Part shown: positions 9,131 to 22,420 of the stretch, piece after piece
Layout: the number at the start of each line of letters is the position of its first letter
Numbering within the stretch: the first letter of the stretch is position 1
Origin: Streptomyces sp. NBC_00490
GTDB taxonomy: Bacteria > Actinomycetota > Actinomycetes > Streptomycetales > Streptomycetaceae
Length of the DNA: 64,000 nucleotides
Direction of reading: 5' to 3'
Assembly: GCF_036013645.1 (NCBI RefSeq)
Contig: NZ_CP107869.1
Span: 992,001-1,056,000, forward strand
Made by a program: the position numbers and the translations under genes
Notes under the pieces: model-generated
The model's input: the letters and a program-made list of their open reading frames with translations, nothing else
The model's database searches: none
What the model was told of the DNA's origin: nothing

Positions 9131-9709
9131 TCACTCCTTCCTGATCGGCGCATGCCCGGCCAGGACGGATTCCATCAGGAGGCGGATCATCTCGTGGGCC
9201 GGTCTGTTGCGGTCATTGGGCACGTTAGCGCCTTCGAACACGGCCACCACGGTGTCGCGCAGGAGCGCGGCATCGATGCCGGAGTCGCCGTCGAGGCCGT
9301 GCTCGGCGATGACCTCGTCGACCAGTCCCACGATCCAGCCCAGGAAGGTGTTGTGGGCGGCCCGAACCGCCTCGGAATGCGGCAGCCGGTCGTGCATGGC
9401 CTGATGCAGCGGCCGTGAATAGCGCATGTCGGACAGCCCCCGCACCAGCCGGCTCAACGGGTCGGCGCCCGCCTGCTCCGCGCTGAGCGTACGGATCTCA
9501 CGGCTGAGCATCCGGTCCATCACCGCGGCGAAGATGTCGTCCTTCGAGTCGAAGTACCAGTACACATTGCCCCGGGCCACACCGGCGGCAGCGCTGATGT
9601 CCGCCATCGTGGTCTTGGCATAGCCCTTGGAGAGAAAGAGCTCCGTCGCCGCGGCGAGCAGATCACCTGCCCGCTCTTCACGGGGGATCTGCTGGCGGTT
9701 CCGCGGCAT
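9131..9709 (-). CDS. TetR-family transcriptional regulator
   Basis: A 192-residue regulator with helix-turn-helix around residues 33-53 (TMADISAAAGVARGNVYWYF) followed by DSKDDIFAAVMDRM. It converges on the flavin hydroxylase gene with 17 bases between stops. It is the only regulator next to the catabolic cluster, so control of the promoters near 7.3 kb is a reasonable guess. An inverted repeat upstream of its own start (9732-9763) could be an autoregulatory site. Confidence 0.88.
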   Translation of the reverse strand: MPRNRQQIPREERAGDLLAAATELFLSKGYAKTTMADISAAAGVARGNVYWYFDSKDDIFAAVMDRMLSREIRTLSAEQAGADPLSRLVRGLSDMRYSRPLHQAMHDRLPHSEAVRAAHNTFLGWIVGLVDEVIAEHGLDGDSGIDAALLRDTVVAVFEGANVPNDRNRPAHEMIRLLMESVLAGHAPIRKE

Positions 9710-9731
9710 CCCGGGCTCCTCTGATGGGTTC

Positions 9732-9763
9732 AGCTCGTCTCAACTGAGTGTAGACAGCGAGCT
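9732..9763. promoter_or_regulatory. Inverted repeat upstream of the TetR gene
   Basis: AGCTCG (9732-9737) and CGAGCT (9758-9763) form a perfect outer repeat, with GTCT / AGAC nested inside at 9737-9740 and 9752-9755. It lies 23 bases before the TetR start, where an autoregulatory operator would be expected. Confidence 0.35.
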
Positions 9764-9832
9764 GGACCGGCCTGTCGGCAGTGAAGTGATCTTGGCGAGA
9801 GGCCTGCGAGATAGCCGTGCGTTCAGACATGG

Positions 9833-9863
9833 CTGTGTCCCCTGCCGATGGCAGGGGACACAG
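9833..9863 (-). terminator. Strong stem-loop after the quinone oxidoreductase gene
   Basis: CTGTGTCCCCTGCC and its exact complement GGCAGGGGACACAG form a 14-bp perfect stem with a 3-base loop, about 70 bases after the stop of the minus-strand gene 9935-10882. There is no U-run, as is common for Streptomyces terminators. Confidence 0.65.
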
Positions 9864-9934
9864 GCACCTCGGTCTGCCGACCGAAGCCACGACGTCCGTG
9901 CACGGCCGTCGGTCGGCGGAACGGATCCGGTTGT

Positions 9935-10882
9935 CTACGGCACCAGGACGATCTTTCCGCTGGTGCGACCGGTCATGATCTGGCGATGGGCGGCAGCGGC
10001 TTCCCTGAGTGGGTGGCTGCCTGCGATCAGGACGCGCAGGCGCCCTGCCTCCGCGGCCTCGGTGAGCCGCAGGCGGGCGGCGGTACGGATGGCCCTGCCC
10101 GGGTCTGCGCCGGGCGAGCCGCCGAGGAGCTTGATGCCGGCCTGGGCCCCACGCGCGAACCCCGCGATGGTGGCGATGCGGGAACGGTCCGCCACGAGTT
10201 CCACGGAGACGTCCACCGCCTCGTCGGTGCCCACCAGGTCGGCCGCCGCGTCGACGCCCTCCGGTGCTGCCGCGCGTACCCGGTCGGCCAGGCCGGGCCC
10301 GTAGGCGACCGGGGTCGCTCCCAGGTCTCGCAGCAGATCGTGCTTGGCCGCGCTGGCCGTTCCGAGGACCGTGGCGCCGCGTGCCACCGCCAGTTGCACG
10401 GCCATCAGGCCGACCCCTCCTGCGGCGCCGTGGATCAGCACCGTTTCGTCCTTGCTCAGACCGATCGCCTCGAGAACGTGCACGGCGGTGACGCCGGCGG
10501 CCATCAGGCCGCCGGCCTGCTCCCAGGAGAGAACCGTGGGCTTCGGTACCACCGAGGAGGCCGGGACGACGAGTTCGGTGGCGTACGCGCCGGGCGCGGG
10601 ATAGACGATCACCTCGTCGCCGACCTCGACCGGACCGGCGGGGCCGGTCGCGTCGGCGCCCACCGCGGTCACCACGCCCGCCGCCTCGACTCCGAGCCGT
10701 AGGGGCAACTTCGCGGGATCGGTCCCGAAGGCGCCGCTGTACACCTTCTGGTCAAAGGGGTTGACGCCCGCGGCACGGACCGCGATGCGCACCTGGCCCG
10801 GCCCGGGATCAGGGACGGCGACATCGATCACCGACAGCACCTCGGGACCGCCGTACGCGCTCGCTACTACTGCTTCGCTCAT
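9935..10882 (-). CDS. NADP-dependent quinone oxidoreductase (zeta-crystallin-type MDR)
   Basis: A 315-residue zinc-free MDR protein (from the ATG at 10882). It has the substrate-domain start VVASAYGGPEVL, the G/A-rich nucleotide loop HGAAGGVGLMAVQLA near 143-157, and the C-terminal GKIVLVP strand. No zinc-lobe cysteines are present. Family members reduce quinones or alpha,beta-unsaturated carbonyls with NADPH. The start is uncertain: none of the candidates (10882, 10915, 10990) has a good ribosome site, and 10882 was chosen by alignment to the family N-terminus. It is divergent from the hydrolase gene at 11190. Confidence 0.87.
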   Translation of the reverse strand: MSEAVVASAYGGPEVLSVIDVAVPDPGPGQVRIAVRAAGVNPFDQKVYSGAFGTDPAKLPLRLGVEAAGVVTAVGADATGPAGPVEVGDEVIVYPAPGAYATELVVPASSVVPKPTVLSWEQAGGLMAAGVTAVHVLEAIGLSKDETVLIHGAAGGVGLMAVQLAVARGATVLGTASAAKHDLLRDLGATPVAYGPGLADRVRAAAPEGVDAAADLVGTDEAVDVSVELVADRSRIATIAGFARGAQAGIKLLGGSPGADPGRAIRTAARLRLTEAAEAGRLRVLIAGSHPLREAAAAHRQIMTGRTSGKIVLVP

Positions 10883-10989
10883 GTCAGAGACCAACTCTGT
10901 TTCGGAGGGGGTCATTCCGCCCACTCGTGGTCGCCTCCCGTGCCGCCGACCGGGGCTTCGCGCCCTACGGGCCCGACCCTCACTGACCA

Positions 10990-11001
10990 TAAGTTACCTT
11001 A
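10990..11001. promoter_or_regulatory. Candidate operator TAAG-N4-CTTA
   Basis: TAAGTTACCTTA, an imperfect dyad 108 bases before the chosen quinone reductase start. AAGT/ACTT-type dyads are common HxlR/MarR targets near oxidoreductase genes, but no such regulator gene is adjacent. Confidence 0.3.
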
Positions 11002-11079
11002 CTGTCTCGGCGTCGAACGGCCCGTGGCACCCGCGTGTCCCCTTCGGGGGACGAATCGCTTACCACGAGATCGATATCC

Positions 11080-11100
11080 AGGGGAAAGTTTCTTCCCCCT
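11080..11100. promoter_or_regulatory. G-run/C-run palindromic operator, copy 1
   Basis: A-GGGGAA, 6 bases, TTCCCC-CT: a perfect 6-bp inverted repeat bounded by AGGGG and CCCCT with 11 bases between. It lies 90 bases before the hydrolase start. The same geometry occurs at 12188-12208, and longer versions at 16494-16522 and 17553-17575. Confidence 0.7.
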
Positions 11101-11189
11101 CACCATGAATAGACATCATCCCGGCTTCGGCGAACCATGGCACAAGGACCGCCTGACGGCGGACCAAGGCCGAGGAAGAGGCAGAAATC

Positions 11190-12101
11190 ATGGTCAGAAG
11201 TGTTTCCTTCAGGAACAAAGAAGTAGAAATTGCGGGACACCTGCACCTGCCGGACGACTTCAGGGACGACGAGAAATATCCGGCTCTCGTCGGAATCCAC
11301 CCGGCTGGCGGCGTAAAGGAACAGACCATCGGAGCCTATGCCAGGAGGCTATCTGCACAGGGATTCGTCACGGTGGTGTACGACTCCTCCTACCAGGGAG
11401 AGAGCGGCGGCGAACCTCGCCTCTTGGAAGACCCGACGATCAGGGTGGAGGATGCCCGCTGCGCAGCCGATTTTCTGACCACTCTTCCGTTCGTCGATTC
11501 CGAACGGATGGGAGTTTTCGGCATTTGCGCCGGGGGCGGTTACGCAATCAGCGCGGCACAGACCGAACGTCGTTTCAAGGCGGTGGCCACCGTCAGCGCG
11601 GCCCCCATGGGCGAGGGCTCCCGAGCCTTTCTGGGGCACATGTCCCCGGTGGCCGAGCAGATCGGGACGCTGGAAATGGTTGCCGGGCAGCGCACGGCGG
11701 AAGCGAGAGGAGAGGCACCTCTCTACGCCCCGTTTGTTCCGGAAACGCTGAAGGAGATCAACGAAAACACACCGGACCTCCTGCGCGAAGGATACGACTA
11801 CTACAGGACTCCCCGAGGCCAACACCCTAATTCGAAGGGCCGCTTCCTGCTGACCAGCATGGACAAGATGTTCGCCTTCTCGGCGTTCGACCAGATCCCG
11901 GAACTGCTGACCCAACCGATGCTCCTGATCGCAGGGAGCAAGGCGGATACAAAGGTGTTCAGCGACCAGGCCTACGAGCTTTCCCAAGGGCCGAAGGAGT
12001 TGTTCGTCGTCGAAGGCGCGACGCATATCGCCATGTACGACGTGCCCGAGTACGTAGATCAAGCGATCACCAAGATGGTGACGTTCTTCGCTGTCCTGTA
12101 G
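11190..12101 (+). CDS. Alpha/beta hydrolase with predicted Cys nucleophile (dienelactone-hydrolase-like)
   Basis: A 303-residue alpha/beta hydrolase. The nucleophile elbow reads GICAGGG, which puts Cys113 where most relatives have Ser, as in dienelactone hydrolases. The oxyanion region is GIHPAGG (about 35-41), and the candidate acid and His are in IAGSKADT and GATHIAMYD near the C-terminus. No signal peptide, so cytoplasmic. The ATG at 11190 has a purine-rich GAGGCAGA upstream. Its codon use is slightly less G+C-biased than the neighbours (more A/T third positions), which may point to separate acquisition. It is first in the group of units sharing the G-run/C-run palindrome. Confidence 0.85.
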   Translation: MVRSVSFRNKEVEIAGHLHLPDDFRDDEKYPALVGIHPAGGVKEQTIGAYARRLSAQGFVTVVYDSSYQGESGGEPRLLEDPTIRVEDARCAADFLTTLPFVDSERMGVFGICAGGGYAISAAQTERRFKAVATVSAAPMGEGSRAFLGHMSPVAEQIGTLEMVAGQRTAEARGEAPLYAPFVPETLKEINENTPDLLREGYDYYRTPRGQHPNSKGRFLLTSMDKMFAFSAFDQIPELLTQPMLLIAGSKADTKVFSDQAYELSQGPKELFVVEGATHIAMYDVPEYVDQAITKMVTFFAVL

Positions 12102-12187
12102 CACCGCCGAGGCCTGTGCTCACGCCCACCCGGCAGGCATCGCTTCGGTGCCGTTCGGCGCGACCAGCCCTCAGCGTTCCATTAGAC

Positions 12188-12208
12188 AGGGGAAATTTTC
12201 TTCCCCCT
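12188..12208. promoter_or_regulatory. G-run/C-run palindromic operator, copy 2
   Basis: A-GGGGAA, 6 bases, TTCCCC-CT, the same arms and spacing as copy 1, located 68 bases before the WrbA-like start. Only the A/T centre differs from copy 1. Confidence 0.72.
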
Positions 12209-12276
12209 CACAGCGCGCTCTTCCGGTGCAAGTCTTGGTCACAAGCAGAACACGCGCATTCGAGGAGCACGACACC

Positions 12277-12876
12277 ATGTCCCATTCCGCCCCGCCGTCA
12301 GTCGCCGTTGCCTTTCATTCGGGCTACGGCCACACAGCCGTCGTCGCCGAAGCCGTGGCGCGGGGGGCTGCGGGAGCCGGCGCCGAGGTGGTCTCGATCT
12401 CCGTCGACACCATCACCGACGAGCAGTGGGCACAGCTGGACGCCGCCGACGCGATCATCTTCGGTTCCCCCACGTACATGGGTACCGCCTCCGCGGCCTT
12501 CCACGCGTTCGCCCAGGCCAGCACCAAGCGCTGGTACTCCCAGACCTGGGTGGACAAGCTCGCCGCGGGCTTCACCAACTCCGGTGCCAAGAGCGGCGAC
12601 AAGTCATCCACCCTGGGCTACTTCGCCACCATGGCCGCCCAGCACGGCATGCACTGGATCAGCCTGGGTCTGCAGCCGGGCTGGGATTCCACCACGGGCA
12701 GCGAGGACGACATCAACCGGCTCGGCTTCTTCCTGGGCGCCGGCGCCCAGAGCCCCACGGATGCCGGTCCGGAAGCGGTCCACACGTCGGACATCGCCAC
12801 CGCCGAACACCTGGGTGCGCGCGTCGCGCGCCAGGCCGCGGTCTTCCGCGCCGGGCGCGCCGCCCTCGCCGCCTGA
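12277..12876 (+). CDS. WrbA-like NAD(P)H:quinone oxidoreductase (flavodoxin fold)
   Basis: A 199-residue flavodoxin-like protein. The N-terminal strand and phosphate loop VAFHSGYGHTAVVAEAV bind FMN phosphate. GSPTYMGTASAAFHAFAQ and the region around GLQPGWD complete the flavin site as in WrbA. Family members reduce quinones by two electrons and limit redox cycling. The ATG at 12277 follows GAGGAGC with 8 bases between. It starts a three-gene run (WrbA, SnoaL-like, DJ-1/PfpI) that ends at the 14071-14122 hairpin. Confidence 0.88.
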   Translation: MSHSAPPSVAVAFHSGYGHTAVVAEAVARGAAGAGAEVVSISVDTITDEQWAQLDAADAIIFGSPTYMGTASAAFHAFAQASTKRWYSQTWVDKLAAGFTNSGAKSGDKSSTLGYFATMAAQHGMHWISLGLQPGWDSTTGSEDDINRLGFFLGAGAQSPTDAGPEAVHTSDIATAEHLGARVARQAAVFRAGRAALAA

Positions 12877-12924
12877 TCGCAAGCCACGTTTCCCCTGTCC
12901 CATCCCCCACGCAAGGAGCTCACC

Positions 12925-13317
12925 ATGTCCGACTCCGCGAGCCTCGCCCTCATCCGCCGACTGTACGAGTCCGGAATGTCCCCGGAGGTCACCAGCGAGG
13001 TCATGGCCCCCGACCTCGTCTGGGACATCACCCCCGGCTTCCCGAACAGCGGCGTGTACCACGGTTGGGCCAGTGCGGCACAGGACTTCTTCGGCAGGAC
13101 GATGCCGAACTACGAGTCCTTCGGCGCGGTGCCCGAGGAGTTCTACGCGGACGACGAGGGCCACGTCTTCGTGTTCGGGCACTACCACGCCGAGACCAAG
13201 ACCGGGAACAAGGCCGACGTCCGGTTCATCCACCTGTGGACCGTCCGCGACGGCAAGGCCGTGAGCATGCGGCAGGCCGCCGACAGCCACGTCCTCCAGG
13301 AAGCCCTCAAGGGCTGA
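12925..13317 (+). CDS. SnoaL/NTF2-like protein
   Basis: A 130-residue cone-shaped alpha+beta-barrel protein of the SnoaL/NTF2-like superfamily, recognisable from the N-terminal helix LIRRLYESG, the strand APDLVWDITPGFPNSGVYHG, and the C-terminal VRFIHLWTVRDGKAVSMRQ. AAGGAG sits 7 bases before the ATG. The superfamily covers isomerases, cyclases and dehydratases, so no reaction is assigned. It lies in the WrbA-DJ-1 operon, suggesting a role in handling small reactive carbonyls or quinones. Confidence 0.85.
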   Translation: MSDSASLALIRRLYESGMSPEVTSEVMAPDLVWDITPGFPNSGVYHGWASAAQDFFGRTMPNYESFGAVPEEFYADDEGHVFVFGHYHAETKTGNKADVRFIHLWTVRDGKAVSMRQAADSHVLQEALKG

Positions 13318-13355
13318 AAACCCCCACCACTTCATCAGGCCATCAGGAGCACACC

Positions 13356-14054
13356 ATGGCGAAGATCCTCTTCGTGATCACCGCGTCCGACCACTGGACC
13401 CTGGCCGACGGCACCCGACAGCCGGCCGGCTTCTGGGCCGAGGAAGCAATCGGCCCGTACCAGGTCTTCAAGGAGGCAGGATTCGAGATCGCGGCCGCGA
13501 CACCCGGCGGTGTACCGCCCACGGCGGACGCGCTCAGCCTCACCGCGGAGTTCAACGGAGGCGAGGAAGGCGCCGAGCGCATGCGGACCGCACTGCGCGA
13601 GGCCACCGAGCTGGCCCACCCGATGCGCATCGAGGACGTGGCCATCGACGACTACGCGGCCGTGTTCTACCCCGGCGGCTGGGGCCCGATGGAGGACCTG
13701 CCGGACAACGCCGCCTCCGGCAGGCTGCTCACCGAGTGGCTCGCTTCCGGCAAGCTGGTGTCCCTGGTGTGCCACGGCCCGGCCGCACTGCTGGCCACCA
13801 TCGGCCCCGACGGGACGTCCCCGTTCACCGGCTACCGCCTGACCGGCCTCTCCAACGCCGAGGAGAAGCTGAACGGCCTCGCGGACCGCGCGAAGTGGCT
13901 GCTCCAGGACCGCCTCGTCAGCGACCTCGGGGCCGACTACCGCGAGGCCGAGCCGTTCACCCAGCACGTCGAGGTCGACCGCACCCTGTTCACCGGCCAG
14001 AACCCGGGCTCGGCGGTTCCGCTGGCCCAGGAGTTGGTCAAGGCACTGAGCTGA
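13356..14054 (+). CDS. DJ-1/PfpI-family protein (Hsp31-like glyoxalase III/deglycase)
   Basis: A 232-residue class I glutamine-amidotransferase-like protein of the DJ-1/PfpI family. The nucleophile motif is LVCHGPAAL (Cys139-His140). An upstream GFWAEE gives the conserved glutamate, and FYPGGWGPMEDL is the Hsp31-type loop. Characterised relatives convert methylglyoxal to lactate or act in carbonyl-stress repair. The ATG at 13356 follows CAGGAG with 6 bases between. It is last in the three-gene operon and is followed directly by a strong hairpin. Confidence 0.88.
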   Translation: MAKILFVITASDHWTLADGTRQPAGFWAEEAIGPYQVFKEAGFEIAAATPGGVPPTADALSLTAEFNGGEEGAERMRTALREATELAHPMRIEDVAIDDYAAVFYPGGWGPMEDLPDNAASGRLLTEWLASGKLVSLVCHGPAALLATIGPDGTSPFTGYRLTGLSNAEEKLNGLADRAKWLLQDRLVSDLGADYREAEPFTQHVEVDRTLFTGQNPGSAVPLAQELVKALS

Positions 14055-14070
14055 CACCTCAGCCGCGCAC

Positions 14071-14122
14071 GGAAGACGGCTCGGCGGCCCGGTACGCATT
14101 CCGGGCCGCCGAGTCGTCTTCC
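14071..14122 (+). terminator. Stem-loop terminator after the DJ-1/PfpI gene
   Basis: The arms 14071-14092 and 14101-14122 are 22 bases each and complementary except for one G-T position, with an 8-base loop. It starts 17 bases after the stop codon and is the clearest intrinsic terminator in this part of the window. Confidence 0.8.
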
Positions 14123-14234
14123 GCGTACCGCCCGAACAGGTCGTCGTCGGTATGGTCCTCGCACCTCGGCCGGTCCCACAGGGCAAGACGCTCGCCCCGT
14201 TACAACGCCGGGCTTCTGTGCGAGGCTGGAGATC

Positions 14235-15104
14235 ATGAACCGCAACCCCCATCTGAACGAGCTGGGTGAGTTCCTCAAGGCCCGCCGCGCAGAGCTCAGC
14301 CCTTCCGAGGTCGGACTCCGCGGCGGGCAACGACGACGTGTGAGCGGTCTGCGCCGCGAGGAAGTGGCTCTTCTCGCCGCGATCAGCACCGAGTACTACA
14401 CCCGGATCGAGCAGGGCCGACTCCAGGCATCGGCGCCCCTGCTCGACGAGATCGCCAAGGTGCTCCGTCTGAGCGAGGACCAGCGGACCTATCTCTTCGA
14501 GCTCGCGGCGAAGGAGAGAGTGCGCCCGCCCGTGTCAGGTGACCGTCAGCAGGTGGACACGCAGCTTCAGCGCATGCTGGACGACCTCTCCGCCTCCCCG
14601 GCCTTCGTCATCGGCCGGCGCACCGACATCCTTGGCTGGAACCAGCTCGCCGCCGCCCTGTGGACCGACTTCGGGGACTACCCGGAGCAGGAGCGCGTGT
14701 TCGTCCGGCTGCTGTTCACCGAACCCTGGATGCGCGAGCTGTACGCCGACTGGGAGGAGGTCACCCGGCTGGCCATCGCCCAGCTACGTATGGAGAGCGC
14801 GCGCTACCCCGGCGACGAGCGCCTGACCGCTCTGGTCGAGGAACTCTCCGCCCGTGACGCACAGTTCCGGGAGTGGTGGACCGAACACGACGTCGCGATG
14901 CGGGGCAAGGGCGTCAAGAAGCTCCGCCATCCGGTGGTGGGCGAGCTGACCCTCGACTGGAACACGCTCACCTGTGGCACGGACCCCGACCAGCACATCA
15001 TCGTGTGGAACGCCGAACCCGGCTCCTCGTCCCACGACGGCCTGCGTCTCCTGTCCTCCTGGGCTGCCGAACAGAAGCGGACGGCCTCCGGCACCATCGC
15101 GTGA
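14235..15104 (+). CDS. XRE-family regulator with MmyB-like ligand-binding domain
   Basis: A 289-residue regulator. The N-terminal XRE helix-turn-helix (about 10-75) contains LGEFLKARRAEL, RRVSGLRREEVALLAAIS and YYTRIEQGR, the standard MmyB-type DNA-binding domain. Residues about 105-265 match the MmyB-like PAS-type ligand-binding domain (ILGWNQLAAAL, RVFVRLLFTEPWMRELYADW). The family commonly controls neighbouring short-chain or other oxidoreductases. Here it sits centrally among four units carrying the same G-run/C-run palindrome, so it is the best candidate to bind them. GGAG lies 4 bases before the ATG. I see no copy of the palindrome at its own promoter. Confidence 0.9.
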   Translation: MNRNPHLNELGEFLKARRAELSPSEVGLRGGQRRRVSGLRREEVALLAAISTEYYTRIEQGRLQASAPLLDEIAKVLRLSEDQRTYLFELAAKERVRPPVSGDRQQVDTQLQRMLDDLSASPAFVIGRRTDILGWNQLAAALWTDFGDYPEQERVFVRLLFTEPWMRELYADWEEVTRLAIAQLRMESARYPGDERLTALVEELSARDAQFREWWTEHDVAMRGKGVKKLRHPVVGELTLDWNTLTCGTDPDQHIIVWNAEPGSSSHDGLRLLSSWAAEQKRTASGTIA

Positions 15105-15241
15105 GCGCACGCGATCACTGGGCTTTCCTGGTCGGAAAGTCTCCCCTGCACGGGCTCGCAGAAGTCAGCGAGCATCGCTGAACGGAAGAGCGATCTCACC
15201 CGCTGTCTCGCGCATCAAGCCCCACCTGGAGGAGAAGGACC

Positions 15242-16498
15242 ATGGCCACGCCGGACAAGTCAGGGCCACCGCCGACTGCGACCGAACCCGAAGCCCTGAC
15301 GCCACCGGCCACGCACGGGACGTTCATGACCCGCGGGCTGACCTTCCTGTTCGCCATCGCGGGCGGTGCGGCCGTCGGGAACCTCTACTGGGCGCAGCCG
15401 CTGCTCGACTTCATCGCACAGGACCTGCACGCCTCGACCGCGGCCGCGGGGTGGCTCGTCACGGCCACCCAGATCGGCTACGCGACGGGCATCCTCCTCC
15501 TCGTGCCGCTCGGTGACGTACGCGACCGGCGAAGGCTCATTCCCGTCATACTGCTGTGCTCCGCGATCGCGCTGCTCCTGTGCGCGCTGGCGCCGTCATT
15601 CGGAATGCTGCTGGGCGCCATCACGCTGCTGGGCGTGACGACCGTCTCCGGACAGCTGCTCGCGCCCCTCGCCGGTGACCTCGCCGACGACGACAATCGC
15701 GGCGCCGTGGTCGGGACCGTGGTGTCGGGCATCCTCACCGGCATCCTCGTATCCCGCACGGTCAGCGGTCTGATCGCCGGTGCCGCCGGCTGGCGCACCA
15801 TCTACGTCGTGGCGGCGGCCGTCGCCGTCCTGTTCGCGGCGCTGCTGCACCGCGCGATCCCGTCGCTTCCGCCGAAGACCCACATTCCCTACCCCGCTCT
15901 CATCGCCTCTGTCTGGACGGTCGTACGACGTGAGCGCACGGTGCGCTGGACCCTGGTCCTGGGAGCGACGGCGTTCGCCTCGTTCACCATGTTCTGGACG
16001 TCGCTGACGTTCCTGCTCAGCGCCCCGCCGTTCAGCTATTCCGTGACCGCGATCGGGCTGTTCGGGCTCCTCGGTGTGGCGGGTGCCCTCGCCGCGCAAC
16101 GGGCCGGCCGACTGCACGACCGTGGGTTGTCGTTGCCCGCGACCGGAATCGCGTGGGCCCTGGTCCTGGCGTCGTTCGCCCTGGCAACGTTCGCCGGGCA
16201 CTCGGTGGCGCTCCTCGTGGTCGTGATCGTCCTGCTCGACGTGGCGGTCCAGGGCGTCAACCTGCTCAACCAGTCGCGGATGCTCGCCGTGTCCAACGAG
16301 GCGCGCAGCAGGCTCAACACGGCCTTCGTCACGGGCAACTTCCTCGGCGGCGCGGTCGGTTCGGCCGTCGCTTCGGTGCTGTGGACGACGGGCGGCTGGA
16401 CGGCAGTGATGATCGCGGGAATGGTCCTGAGCGGCTTCGCACTCCTCGTGTGGGCGCTCGGACGCCGGGGCCCGCTGCGACTCTCGTCGGCGGTATAG
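15242..16498 (+). CDS. MFS transporter (Nep/Bcr-like efflux permease)
   Basis: A 418-residue major facilitator protein with about 12 hydrophobic segments. It has a cytoplasmic N-terminal tail of about 28 residues and the motif-A loop LGDVRDRRRLIP after TM2, typical of drug/H+ antiporters. GGAGGAGAAGG stands directly before the ATG at 15242. It follows the MmyB-like regulator by 137 bases and is probably expressed with it or from its own promoter. In this redox-defence region, export of an electrophile or quinone-type compound is plausible; the substrate is unknown. Its stop lies inside the palindrome at 16494-16522. Confidence 0.88.
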   Translation: MATPDKSGPPPTATEPEALTPPATHGTFMTRGLTFLFAIAGGAAVGNLYWAQPLLDFIAQDLHASTAAAGWLVTATQIGYATGILLLVPLGDVRDRRRLIPVILLCSAIALLLCALAPSFGMLLGAITLLGVTTVSGQLLAPLAGDLADDDNRGAVVGTVVSGILTGILVSRTVSGLIAGAAGWRTIYVVAAAVAVLFAALLHRAIPSLPPKTHIPYPALIASVWTVVRRERTVRWTLVLGATAFASFTMFWTSLTFLLSAPPFSYSVTAIGLFGLLGVAGALAAQRAGRLHDRGLSLPATGIAWALVLASFALATFAGHSVALLVVVIVLLDVAVQGVNLLNQSRMLAVSNEARSRLNTAFVTGNFLGGAVGSAVASVLWTTGGWTAVMIAGMVLSGFALLVWALGRRGPLRLSSAV

Positions 16499-16522
16499 GG
16501 GGGAGGATCTCTCCCCCCTATA
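16494..16522. promoter_or_regulatory. G-run/C-run palindromic operator, copy 3 (12-bp arms)
   Basis: TATAGGGGGGAG and CTCCCCCCTATA are perfect 12-bp arms around a 5-base centre. It overlaps the MFS stop codon and lies 99 bases before the next start. It could also act as a terminator, but the arm sequence matches the other G-run/C-run sites. Confidence 0.65.
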
Positions 16523-16620
16523 GGCCTGTACCAGCCAAGAACCTTCCCCTTTTCCCGGCTTGCGCGAGAGGCGAATATCGAAATCCTCAATGAACGCATG
16601 CCGAGCAATGAGGTAATTCG

Positions 16621-17550
16621 ATGAAGGCGGTAGGTTTCACGGAATTCGGCGGGCCGGAGGTGCTTCGGGTCTTGGAGCTGCCCGCCCCCGAAGCCGGTCC
16701 CGGCGAGGTACGGATCCGGGTGCACGCGGCGACGGTCAACGCGGTAGACGCCTTGCAGCGCGGCGGCCCGGGATCGCCGGACGCCCAGCCGCCGTTCGTT
16801 CCCGGCATGGAAGCCGCCGGGGTCGTGGACCGGATAGGCCCGGGTGTGGACACGGACCTGAGCGTCGGCGACCCCGTGATGGCGATCGTGCTCCCCAACG
16901 GCTCGCAGGGCGCCTACGCCGAGCAGGTCGTGGTGCCGGTGGACTCGGTCGTCCGCGCTCCTCACGGTGCGACCGACGCGCAGGCGGCGTCGCTGCCGAT
17001 GAACGGCCTGACCGCGCGCCTGGCACTGGACACGCTCGGCCTGGAACCCGGTCGGACTCTCGCGATCACCGGAGCTGCCGGGGCGGTCGGCGGTTACGCC
17101 GTCCAGCTGGCCAAGGCGGACGGGCTGCGCGTGGTGGCCGACGCCTCGGAGCAGGACGAGACCCTGGTCAAGGAACTGGGTGCCGACGTCGTACTCCGCC
17201 GCGGTGCCGAATATCCGAACCGGGTACGCGCCGCAATCCCTGAAGGTGTCGACGGACTCGTCGACGCCGCGTCGCTCGGCGCTCTCACCGCTCGGGCGGT
17301 CCGCGACGGCGGCCGAGTGGTGACGCTGCGAGGGTTCGACGGACCCGGCGAACGAGGCGTCGTCTTCGAGCCGGTCGTCGTGTTCCGCTACGCCAGGGAG
17401 CGCGCCAAGCTCGACCGGCTCCGACAGCAGGTGGAGGCGGGCAGCCTCACCCTGCGTGTCGCGAAGACGTTGCCGGCGGAACAGGCGGCCGAAGCGCACC
17501 GCCTCCTCGCCGCGGGCGGAACCCGTGGCCGACTGATCCTCACCTTCTGA
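16621..17550 (+). CDS. NADP-dependent quinone oxidoreductase (zeta-crystallin-type MDR)
   Basis: A 309-residue zinc-free MDR enzyme: N-terminal MKAVGFTEFGGPEVL, nucleotide-binding loop ITGAAGAVGGYAVQLAKA near residues 149-166, and C-terminal GGTRGRLILTF. There is no structural-zinc lobe. It is likely to reduce quinones or enones with NADPH. The ATG at 16621 has weak purine-rich sequence (GAGG) upstream. Flanking palindromes at 16494-16522 (before) and 17553-17575 (after) mark it as its own unit within the putative regulon. Confidence 0.9.
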   Translation: MKAVGFTEFGGPEVLRVLELPAPEAGPGEVRIRVHAATVNAVDALQRGGPGSPDAQPPFVPGMEAAGVVDRIGPGVDTDLSVGDPVMAIVLPNGSQGAYAEQVVVPVDSVVRAPHGATDAQAASLPMNGLTARLALDTLGLEPGRTLAITGAAGAVGGYAVQLAKADGLRVVADASEQDETLVKELGADVVLRRGAEYPNRVRAAIPEGVDGLVDAASLGALTARAVRDGGRVVTLRGFDGPGERGVVFEPVVVFRYARERAKLDRLRQQVEAGSLTLRVAKTLPAEQAAEAHRLLAAGGTRGRLILTF

Positions 17551-17552
17551 GA

Positions 17553-17575
17553 AGGGGGGTAAGGATTACTCCCCT
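17553..17575. promoter_or_regulatory. G-run/C-run palindromic operator, copy 4
   Basis: AGGGGGG-GTAA... and ...TTAC-TCCCCT: the inner GTAA / TTAC arms (3-base centre) are extended by G and C runs with one mismatch. It lies just after the quinone reductase stop and about 130 bases before the Zn-dehydrogenase start. Confidence 0.58.
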
Positions 17576-17703
17576 GGATGAGTCATTCCCCGGATGGAAT
17601 TCTTTTCCTTTGCGGGCGCACCGGGTGACCCAACGCCATAACCGCGATGACGCGGCTCAAGCAAATCGTGGACAACACCGACCAGTCCGACTGAGAAGGC
17701 ACC

Positions 17704-18720
17704 ATGCGAGCAACCATCATTCACGCCCCCGGTGACATCCGTGTGGAGAACGCCCCGGAACCGAGGATCACGGCACCGACGGACGCGGTCGTCCGTACCG
17801 TCGCCGCCTGTGTGTGCGGCTCCGATCTGTGGAGTTACCGGGGTGTCCTGCCGGTCACCGGGCCGCAGCCGATCGGCCATGAGTACGTCGGCATCGTCGA
17901 GGAGGTCGGCAGCGACGTATCGAGCGTCAAGCCGGGCCAGTTCGTCATCGGCTCCTTCGTCGCCTCCGACAACACCTGTCCGATCTGCCGGGCCGGCTAT
18001 CACACCTCCTGCCAGCACGCGCAGTGGGTCAACGGCTGCCAGGCCGAGTACGTCCGCGTGCCCCTCGCCGACGGAACCCTGGTCGCCACCCCGGAGCAGC
18101 CGTCCGAGGAGCTCATCCCGGACCTGCTGGCCCTGTCCGACGTCATGGGCACCGGCTGGTACGCCGCCAAGGCAGCCGAGGTCAAGCCCGGTGCGACGGC
18201 CGTGGTCGTCGGTGACGGCGCGGTCGGCCTGTCCGGCGTCATCGCCGCGAAGGAACTGGGCGCCGAACGGATCATCGCCATGAGCCGGCACGAGTCCCGG
18301 CAGAAGCTCGCCCTGGAGTTCGGTGCCACCGACATCGTCACCGAGCGCGGCGAGGAAGGCGTCGCCCGCGTCAAGGAACTGACGAACGGCATCGGCGCCG
18401 ACTCCGTCCTCGAGTGCGTCGGTACCCAGCAGTCGATGCAGCAGGCCCTCCAGTCCACCCGCCCGGGCGGCAACGTCGGCTTCGTCGGCATGCCGCACGA
18501 CGTGCAGATCGACGGTCTGCAACTGTTCTTCTCCCACGTCGGCCTGCGCGGTGGTCCCGCCCCCGTACGCGCCTACCTTCCCGACCTGATCGACCGCGTC
18601 CTCAGCGGCCGTATCCATCCGGGCAAGGTCTTCGACCTCACCCTGTCCCTGGACGAGGCCGCCGAAGGCTATAAGGCCATGGACGAGCGCCGCGCCGTCA
18701 AGGCGTTGCTGCGTCCGTGA
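17704..18720 (+). CDS. Zinc-dependent alcohol dehydrogenase (MDR)
   Basis: A 338-residue zinc-type MDR enzyme. Catalytic-zinc residues are present: VCGSD (Cys38) and GHE (His59-Glu60). The structural lobe reads SDNTCPICRAGYHTSC, giving Cys92, Cys95 and Cys103, with Asp89 where the first Cys usually stands; this variant is common in one branch of bacterial enzymes. The cofactor loop is VVGDGAVGL (about 168-176). AGAAGG lies 4 bases before the ATG. It heads a same-strand run with the antiporter, amidohydrolase and aldo/keto reductase genes (gaps 37-75 bases), probably one operon driven from the palindrome-bearing promoter region. Confidence 0.92.
   Translation: MRATIIHAPGDIRVENAPEPRITAPTDAVVRTVAACVCGSDLWSYRGVLPVTGPQPIGHEYVGIVEEVGSDVSSVKPGQFVIGSFVASDNTCPICRAGYHTSCQHAQWVNGCQAEYVRVPLADGTLVATPEQPSEELIPDLLALSDVMGTGWYAAKAAEVKPGATAVVVGDGAVGLSGVIAAKELGAERIIAMSRHESRQKLALEFGATDIVTERGEEGVARVKELTNGIGADSVLECVGTQQSMQQALQSTRPGGNVGFVGMPHDVQIDGLQLFFSHVGLRGGPAPVRAYLPDLIDRVLSGRIHPGKVFDLTLSLDEAAEGYKAMDERRAVKALLRP

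Positions 18721-20436: not shown

Positions 20437-22420
<1,984 letters not shown>

Follow-up and report, generated by a model that had tools for sequence, protein, structure and literature searches.

Background

The MmyB/MltR family of XRE-type regulators has already been linked to SDR/MDR genes (PMC3406030, section 12). As far as the available text of that source goes, MmyB is an activator of the methylenomycin genes that uses pseudo-palindromic B-boxes, 15 of the 16 Streptomyces coelicolor paralogues are divergent from their target, and the MltR crystal held a fatty acid (PMC3406030). The present analysis concerns a 64-kb stretch (the window, to which all positions refer) of the 10.8-Mb genome of Streptomyces sp. 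NBC_00490, in which four G-run/C-run palindromes stand ahead of redox or hydrolase genes around a regulator gene of this family at position 14235. Comparison with relatives indicates that the four sites are very probably of one kind and tied to one MmyB-like subfamily. They are likely to be operators of the MmyB/MltR-like XRE-PAS subfamily that includes the 14235 protein, a ligand-bound dimer of which is predicted to activate the redox units. On these comparative grounds, the locus is part of a real, conserved regulatory system that is new within a known regulator family.

The 14235 protein shares the two-domain architecture and fold of the family (PF17765; MltR, 3pxp), and the MDR-type genes at 16621 and 17704 that follow it agree with the family's SDR/MDR linkage. 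Unlike most S. coelicolor paralogues, the window regulator is not divergent from a target, its gene and those beside it all being transcribed in one direction; divergence is a common trait of the family, not a requirement. What is defined here beyond the published family description is the operator sequence, a fixed spacing to the -10 element, a second operator copy and three or four target units.

A catalogue of XRE palindromes likewise predicts palindromic XRE operators by way of autoregulation, and the G-run motif, the MmyB target set and the distance rule are not named in its available text, although the motif could be among its entries (PMC12565409). MsrR of Corynebacterium glutamicum is also an XRE regulator tied to oxidative stress and to an MFS gene, but is described in the available text as a thiol-switch repressor (PMC7532634). 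A thiol switch is unsupported for the 14235 subfamily, since 8 of the 19 aligned members lack the cysteine found in the LTC stretch. A literature search, covering mostly open papers and with the original mmyB work outside it, found no operator described for MmyB-like regulators except the MmyB B-boxes. Lambda CI at PRM and the controller proteins of restriction-modification systems are class II activators with an XRE-type domain, whose helix-turn-helix (HTH) dimers bind operators in tandem, with the proximal operator by the -35 region; they have no PAS-like ligand domain, and their operators are unrelated in sequence to those of the window. The controller proteins C.BclI and C.AhdI are among the HTH-domain matches of 14235.

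Four palindromes and a conserved 21-bp motif

The predicted operators are as follows, with their scores in the weight matrix described below.

11080..11100 (+ strand), operator 1, ahead of the hydrolase gene; 31.3 bits
12188..12208 (+ strand), operator 2, ahead of wrbA; 29.0 bits
16494..16522 (+ strand), operator 3, the distal operator of the quinone reductase gene; about 20 bits (16497/16498), both strands
17553..17575 (- strand), operator 4, probably left over from a divergent regulator-paralogue/decarboxylase promoter; 26.2 bits (17555, minus strand), layout compared in 13 relatives

The sequence is AGGGGAAAGTTTCTTCCCCCT at 11080-11100 and AGGGGAAATTTTCTTCCCCCT at 12188-12208, with the core GGGGAA-N6-TTCCCC at 11081-11098 and 12189-12206, confirming the perfect repeat of identical geometry that a first-pass annotation had noticed. 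That annotation had also reported longer palindromes at 16494-16522 and 17553-17575. The first, TATAGGGGGGAG-GATCT-CTCCCCCCTATA, does have perfect arms of 12 bp each and overlaps the stop codon of the MFS gene, while the second, AGGGGGGTAAGGATTACTCCCCT, has arms shifted by 1 base and forms no clean palindrome. The start codons at 11190, 12277, 16621 and 17704 stand 68-128 bases past the four palindromes, in agreement with the 68-130 bases claimed.

Abundance of the palindromes at random places in the genome had been named beforehand as an observation that would speak against the proposed regulon. The loose pattern GGGG-N10-CCCC is at chance level, both genome-wide (364 against 368 in the reversed control) and in the window (6 against 6.06 expected); it was rejected as evidence, and conservation of sequence was therefore examined instead. 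The exact core GGGGAA-N6-TTCCCC is present at 4 places in the genome, 2 of them in the window, and at none in the control. A 21-bp weight matrix was built from 77 distinct sites of other species; its seed was six 21-mers, two from the window, and the window rows were taken out of the final matrix. By this measure the motif is rare: the matrix finds nothing above 10 bits in the 64-kb window outside the four palindromes, and no match of at least 18 bits in 2 Mb of first-order random sequence. The other two exact core matches in the genome (L078, L079) score 12.5 bits in one case and below 10 in the other, and are probably not operators of this kind.

A total of 45 loci encoding relatives of the 14235 regulator was collected by scan, and a 21-bp consensus, about AGGGGAnnnATCCnTCCCCCT, recurs in them ahead of the same genes. 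Site counts were taken from the weight matrix, earlier rigid-pattern counts not being used. Sites of at least 15 bits precede the hydrolase gene in all 20 relatives, at -107 to -112 in 19 and at -42 in L006; the quinone reductase gene has one at -122 to -127 in 12 of 14 relatives. For wrbA, a site at -88 to -92 is present in 9 of 18 relatives, with the nine genes that have none lying in tight hydrolase-wrbA operons with a gap of about 36-75 bp. Regulators and paralogues taken together carry a site of this strength in 57/69 promoters, 51 of them at -53 to -56; among close relatives of the regulator (at least 80% identity) 22/29 do so.

When the matrix is built from regulator promoters alone, all from other genomes, the four window sites have the highest scores in the 64 kb (26.5, 25.9, 20.0 and 19.4), and with target promoters alone they again come out on top; the two halves of this cross-test are not fully independent, because one common matrix, seeded on both kinds of site, found both site sets, a point to be counted with those raised against the proposed mechanism below. 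Judged from these comparisons, the conserved distance and the cross-prediction exclude chance.

Link between the operator and the regulator subfamily

The regulator gene is followed in this list by its own upstream elements.

14235..15104 (+ strand), MmyB/MltR-like XRE-PAS regulator; PF17765, 195.7 bits (cut-off 26.3)
14180..14200 (+ strand), degenerate putative autoregulatory operator of the regulator, at -55; -1.3 bits
14222..14227 (+ strand), candidate -10 GAGGCT of the regulator, at +42; assigned by hexamer geometry

The N-terminus of the protein contains an XRE-type HTH (HTH_31, 32.3 bits; HTH_3, 24.2 bits; both above cut-off). Its best PDB match is the MltR structure 3pxp, both in a profile search (E 3e-9) and in a fold search (E 6.3e-12, TM 0.48), the structure model (pLDDT 86) being used for the fold search only. 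The closest relatives are in Streptomyces. The genome holds 24 matches to PF17765, and three paralogues, 60-63% identical to 14235, are found elsewhere in it at two loci with good operators. The first locus (L074, 910-929 kb, about 85 kb to the left, with the gene cluster at L074:188-11462) has three operators of 18.8-26.8 bits. They precede an operon for a molybdenum-type dehydrogenase, with its [2Fe-2S] and FAD subunits and XdhC, an MFS gene, and a tandem pair of MmyB-like regulators (918.5-920.3 kb) divergent from a Zn-dehydrogenase gene. At the second (L075, 9.59 Mb), operators lie by the regulator (9.596 Mb) and by a gene set starting with the [2Fe-2S] subunit of such a dehydrogenase. The arrangement in which the same operator stands at several redox units near a regulator thus recurs and is not confined to the window.

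Scanning of the genome with a model of the motif gave 8 places at E up to 10, of which 3 are in the window, 4 at the two paralogue loci and 1 (C1:7104928) in a tRNA array, for which reason it was set aside; scoring covered 150 of the 1743 first-look candidates, and the site of the quinone reductase gene is not among the places listed. Across this and further genomes, regulators at least 58% identical to 14235 have a site of at least 10 bits at -52 to -57 in 10/15 promoters, compared with 1/43 for the others (Fisher test, p 5.7e-7, after removal of the query and of proteins sharing an identical N-terminus). Neighbourhoods gave the same picture, with 20 sites of at least 12 bits in 15 test loci (224 kb) and 0 in 24 control loci (267 kb); L121 (48% identity) joined the test set after its site was seen, the count without it being 19, and about 5.9 kb is common to L089 and L090. 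The 21 sites checked are all absent from the training set, although species overlap with the training loci is possible.

Related dyads occur by a divergent reductase or amidohydrolase gene next to regulators of Curtobacterium, Rathayibacter, Glycomyces, Amycolatopsis and Saccharopolyspora, and the more distant paralogues of the own genome carry a different dyad, CTGnCAG. Run over 61 genomes of the genus at E up to 1, the 21-bp model matched in 11, mostly with marginal values (E near 0.8-0.9). This genus scan, which lends no support when taken alone, was constrained by its stricter filters and by the shortness of the model, and the matrix was then applied to the neighbourhoods. In the motif search that the first-pass annotation had proposed, the subfamily promoters and 7 of the 8 places in the own genome, all at subfamily loci, support the link; the genus scan gave little.

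Promoter geometry

The elements around the operators that bear on transcription are listed here.

11047..11067 (+ strand), possible weak second operator, 33 bp 5' of operator 1; GGGGACGAATCGCTTACCACG, weak, by eye only
11133..11138 (+ strand), candidate -10 AACCAT of the hydrolase gene, +53 from the operator start; hexamer geometry
12230..12235 (+ strand), candidate -10 AAGTCT, +42; hexamer geometry
16531..16551 (+ strand), putative proximal half-operator of the quinone reductase gene, 33 bp downstream; CCAGCCAAGAACCTTCCCCTT
16573..16578 (+ strand), candidate -10 GAATAT, +42 from the proximal half-operator; hexamer geometry

A -10-like hexamer was defined as nAnnnT, with its offset counted from the operator start and a background rate of 0.031. 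It stands at +42 in 10/10 wrbA promoters with a site, in 15/15 quinone reductase promoters (counted from the proximal half-site), in 21/30 close regulators and in 29/38 paralogues. Loci of other genera show it at +43 ahead of the divergent gene in 8/10 cases, with L048 at +44 and L035 at neither position. A binomial test on 12/14 promoter families is indicative only, the families being hand-picked. If the hexamer is the -10 element, the operator centre would lie near -44 and the regulator genes would be transcribed from about their start codon; in the window, the start codon is 8 bases past GAGGCT, which suggests leaderless transcription of the regulator. An operator centred there would match the placement of a class II activator site, for which a centre near -41 to -45 of the start is expected.

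Many promoters contain a second copy of the operator, often a weak one. The best second site lies at -35 to -33 or at +33 in 56 of 101 distinct promoters, compared with a mean of 6.5 and a maximum of 12 for shuffled flanks. Hydrolase promoters have the second copy at -33 to -35 (14/21), and quinone reductase promoters at +33 (12/13). In the latter, it is the distal copy that forms the strong palindrome, and the copy adjoining the promoter is a half-site lying 33 bp further downstream. No sigma-70-like promoter with 9 of 12 matches was found in 11000-17800.

This geometry also bears on whether the palindromes act as RNA hairpins (terminators, attenuators) or arose by chance, which is most improbable. 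Site 3 does offer a 12-bp perfect stem over the MFS stop codon, and loose G-run/C-run pairs occur as often as chance predicts. Against a hairpin, a terminator scan that needs a T-run flags 0/4 palindromes, and the start predicted at the ATG of the regulator genes would leave the palindrome untranscribed; the terminator/attenuator reading was rejected on that scan and on the geometry. Chance fails on the conserved distance and the cross-prediction.

Putative target units

Genes of these units, and a further weak site, are as follows.

11190..12101 (+ strand), alpha/beta hydrolase, dienelactone-hydrolase-like; Pfam DLH, 32.6 bits
12277..12876 (+ strand), WrbA-like flavodoxin-fold reductase; Pfam FMN_red, NCBIfam WrbA models below cut-off
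12925..13317 (+ strand), SnoaL-like protein; Pfam SnoaL_2, 41 bits
13356..14054 (+ strand), DJ-1/PfpI-family protein; Pfam DJ-1_PfpI, 51.5 bits
15128..15148 (+ strand), weak degenerate site ahead of the MFS gene; 3.1 bits
15242..16498 (+ strand), MFS transporter; Pfam MFS_1, 122 bits
16621..17550 (+ strand), quinone reductase, zeta-crystallin/PIG3-like; best NCBIfam TIGR02824, 154.7 bits, below cut-off
17704..18720 (+ strand), Zn-dependent dehydrogenase; Pfam ADH_zinc_N, 88 bits
18796..20382 (+ strand), Na+/H+ antiporter; TIGR00831, 416.7 bits, above cut-off
20437..21396 (+ strand), amidohydrolase; Pfam Amidohydro_2
21434..22420 (+ strand), aldo/keto reductase; Pfam Aldo_ket_red

Of the four units first proposed, the hydrolase, WrbA-SnoaL-DJ-1 and quinone reductase units hold up, with sites at fixed distances in relatives, while the unit behind site 4 is doubtful. 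The MFS gene at 15242 had been counted as a dedicated exporter of the set, but the site ahead of it is degenerate (3.1 bits); in relatives, the same MFS gene is found after the regulator, nearly full-length in L023 and fragmentary in L005 and L024. As far as the enzyme families go, the units may plausibly serve to counter quinones, aldehydes or other electrophiles. Ahead of the hydrolase gene, TetR-like and zinc-type reductase genes run leftward (9131-10990), and no operator of at least 10 bits was found for them.

Site 4 and the Zn-dehydrogenase operon

Site 4 has its highest score on the minus strand, and in the 13 relatives examined the corresponding element lies beside a leftward regulator paralogue. 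A carboxymuconolactone decarboxylase gene is found to its right in L008, L014, L015 and L016 (the intact L008 protein matches Pfam CMD). A CAGGGT-type hexamer stands at +76 in 11/13 of these relatives (not in L021 and L031), and GAGGCT at +75 in 4/4 regulator/Zn-dehydrogenase promoters (L110, L111, L113, L074), where 75 = 33 + 42. At site 4 of the window, the regulator paralogue, an intact decarboxylase gene and the +75/+76 hexamer are all missing, and two traces of the layout are present.

17588..17608 (+ strand), apparent remnant of the proximal half-operator; CCCCGGATGGAATTCTTTTCC where relatives have CCCCGGATGGAATTCTCCCCT
17629..17694 (+ strand), stub left from the C-terminal end of a decarboxylase gene, 21 codons plus the stop codon; its translation agrees with the last residues of the intact proteins of L008, L014 and others

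Site 4 thus looks like the remnant of a divergent regulator-paralogue/carboxymuconolactone decarboxylase promoter, or like a site that has been re-used. With the paralogue, the decarboxylase and the original -10 lost, control of the Zn-dehydrogenase operon by site 4, as the first-pass annotation had it, is doubtful; AATTCT, located at +43, might serve as a substitute -10. In the mechanism proposed below, the Zn-dehydrogenase unit would have lost all three, leaving its site as a remnant or in a new use.

Proposed mechanism and alternatives

The palindromes are proposed to be operators of the MmyB/MltR-like subfamily that includes 14235. A ligand-bound dimer, or perhaps two on tandem sites about three helical turns apart, would touch RNA polymerase from a centre near -44 and turn the units on in the manner of class II activators. 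Paralogues with the common operator may cross-regulate, and the gene content would fit the disposal of quinones, aldehydes and other electrophiles.

A number of observations weigh against this mechanism. The hexamer of the hydrolase promoters is at +52, not +42, in 14/21 cases; lying one turn further, it would still keep the same helix face. Many of the second sites are weak, scoring below zero bits. Five of the 15 subfamily promoters fall below the threshold used: L090 (8.5 bits, at the right place), the inner gene of a tandem pair, L115 (whose regulator has a broken N-terminus), L114 (0.6 bits, at the right place) and L117. In the genus scan, a regulator at least 59% identical is encoded in 10 other genomes, and a model match lies beside it in G040 only. 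Three further observations of this kind, on Curtobacterium, on 14235 itself and on genome G010, each touch an alternative explanation.

In Curtobacterium L037 and L040, the hexamer is at +31 on the regulator side, nearer the operator, as it might be if the same regulator and operator worked in repressor mode, an unliganded dimer sitting on the -35 region until released by an electrophile or a fatty-acid-like ligand. The operator does lie over or beside the -35 region, and MsrR offers an actinobacterial precedent of an XRE protein acting as a thiol-based repressor of an MFS gene, according to the available text (PMC7532634). The rigid spacing of operator and hexamer in unrelated promoters, with a hydrolase shift of one turn, is by contrast typical of RNA polymerase contact; the lack of a sigma-70-like promoter noted above is consistent with dependence on an activator, and MmyB is itself described as an activator in the available account (PMC3406030). 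Repression is considered unlikely, and activation is probably the mode of action, as far as promoter architecture can tell. On the divergent reductase side of the same two Curtobacterium loci the hexamer is at +43. A single operator might there activate the target while limiting the regulator.

The operator of 14235 itself is degenerate in the window, and the paralogue loci have good ones, from which it follows that 14235 need not be the sole binder. Other subfamily members could then be the chief occupants of the sites (the 918.5-920.3 kb pair or the regulator at 9.596 Mb), with 14235 playing a minor or different role, and paralogues within the relatives' cluster do carry the same operator. 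Set against this, orthologues of 14235 have a good operator at the same place in 22/29 close relatives, and the recognition-helix region of 14235 is much like that of the paralogues; a main role for the other members is judged to be improbable, on a par with repression. The earlier proposal that the 14235 regulator binds these sites is supported to the extent that the sites track its MmyB-like subfamily, and weakened for 14235 in particular by its degenerate operator and by the sharing of the operator with paralogues.

Genome G010 has a good model match (G010:C2:5441330-5441348, E 0.042) and no subfamily regulator at the cut used (E 1e-70). Such a case would be expected if a different, unlinked transcription factor occupied the sites and the co-location of MmyB-like genes reflected co-regulation only, and the pairing of operator and protein does rest on comparison. 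The motif nevertheless tracks the subfamily and precedes the subfamily's own genes across genera, whereas distant MmyB paralogues have another dyad; an unlinked factor is very unlikely. The preferred reading remains that members of the MmyB/MltR-like subfamily bind the operators and activate the units.

Implications for the MmyB/MltR family

Among distant MmyB paralogues, a CTGnCAG-like dyad is present upstream in 34/44 (among them L050, L051, L056, L060, L062 and L067 of the own genome and several of L091-L125). The hexamer in these 34 promoters is at +31 in 17 and at +32 in 1, here measured from the dyad centre, many of them coming from one ortholog group. It is about an even call whether the whole MmyB/MltR family follows one promoter grammar, in which a subfamily-specific dyad (AGGGGA..TCCCCCT or CTGnCAG-type) would be centred about 31-33 bp before the -10 of genes under class II activation. 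The subfamily operator would then be doubled about three turns away and copied to neighbouring redox operons and duplicated regulators to give a local hub. If this is true, the operators of the MmyB/MltR family could be read directly from genomes, and a local hub would represent several ligand sensors sharing one operator code.

With an operator specific to one subfamily and a constant spacing to the -10, sites, targets and the sign of regulation become testable for many MmyB-like regulators, and target sets (hydrolase, WrbA, quinone reductase, Zn-dehydrogenase and xanthine-dehydrogenase-like enzymes) are indicated from which the ligands may be sought. For a poorly known family of soil-bacterial switches, a palindrome at fixed distances would thus predict how redox genes and the regulators' own genes are turned on.

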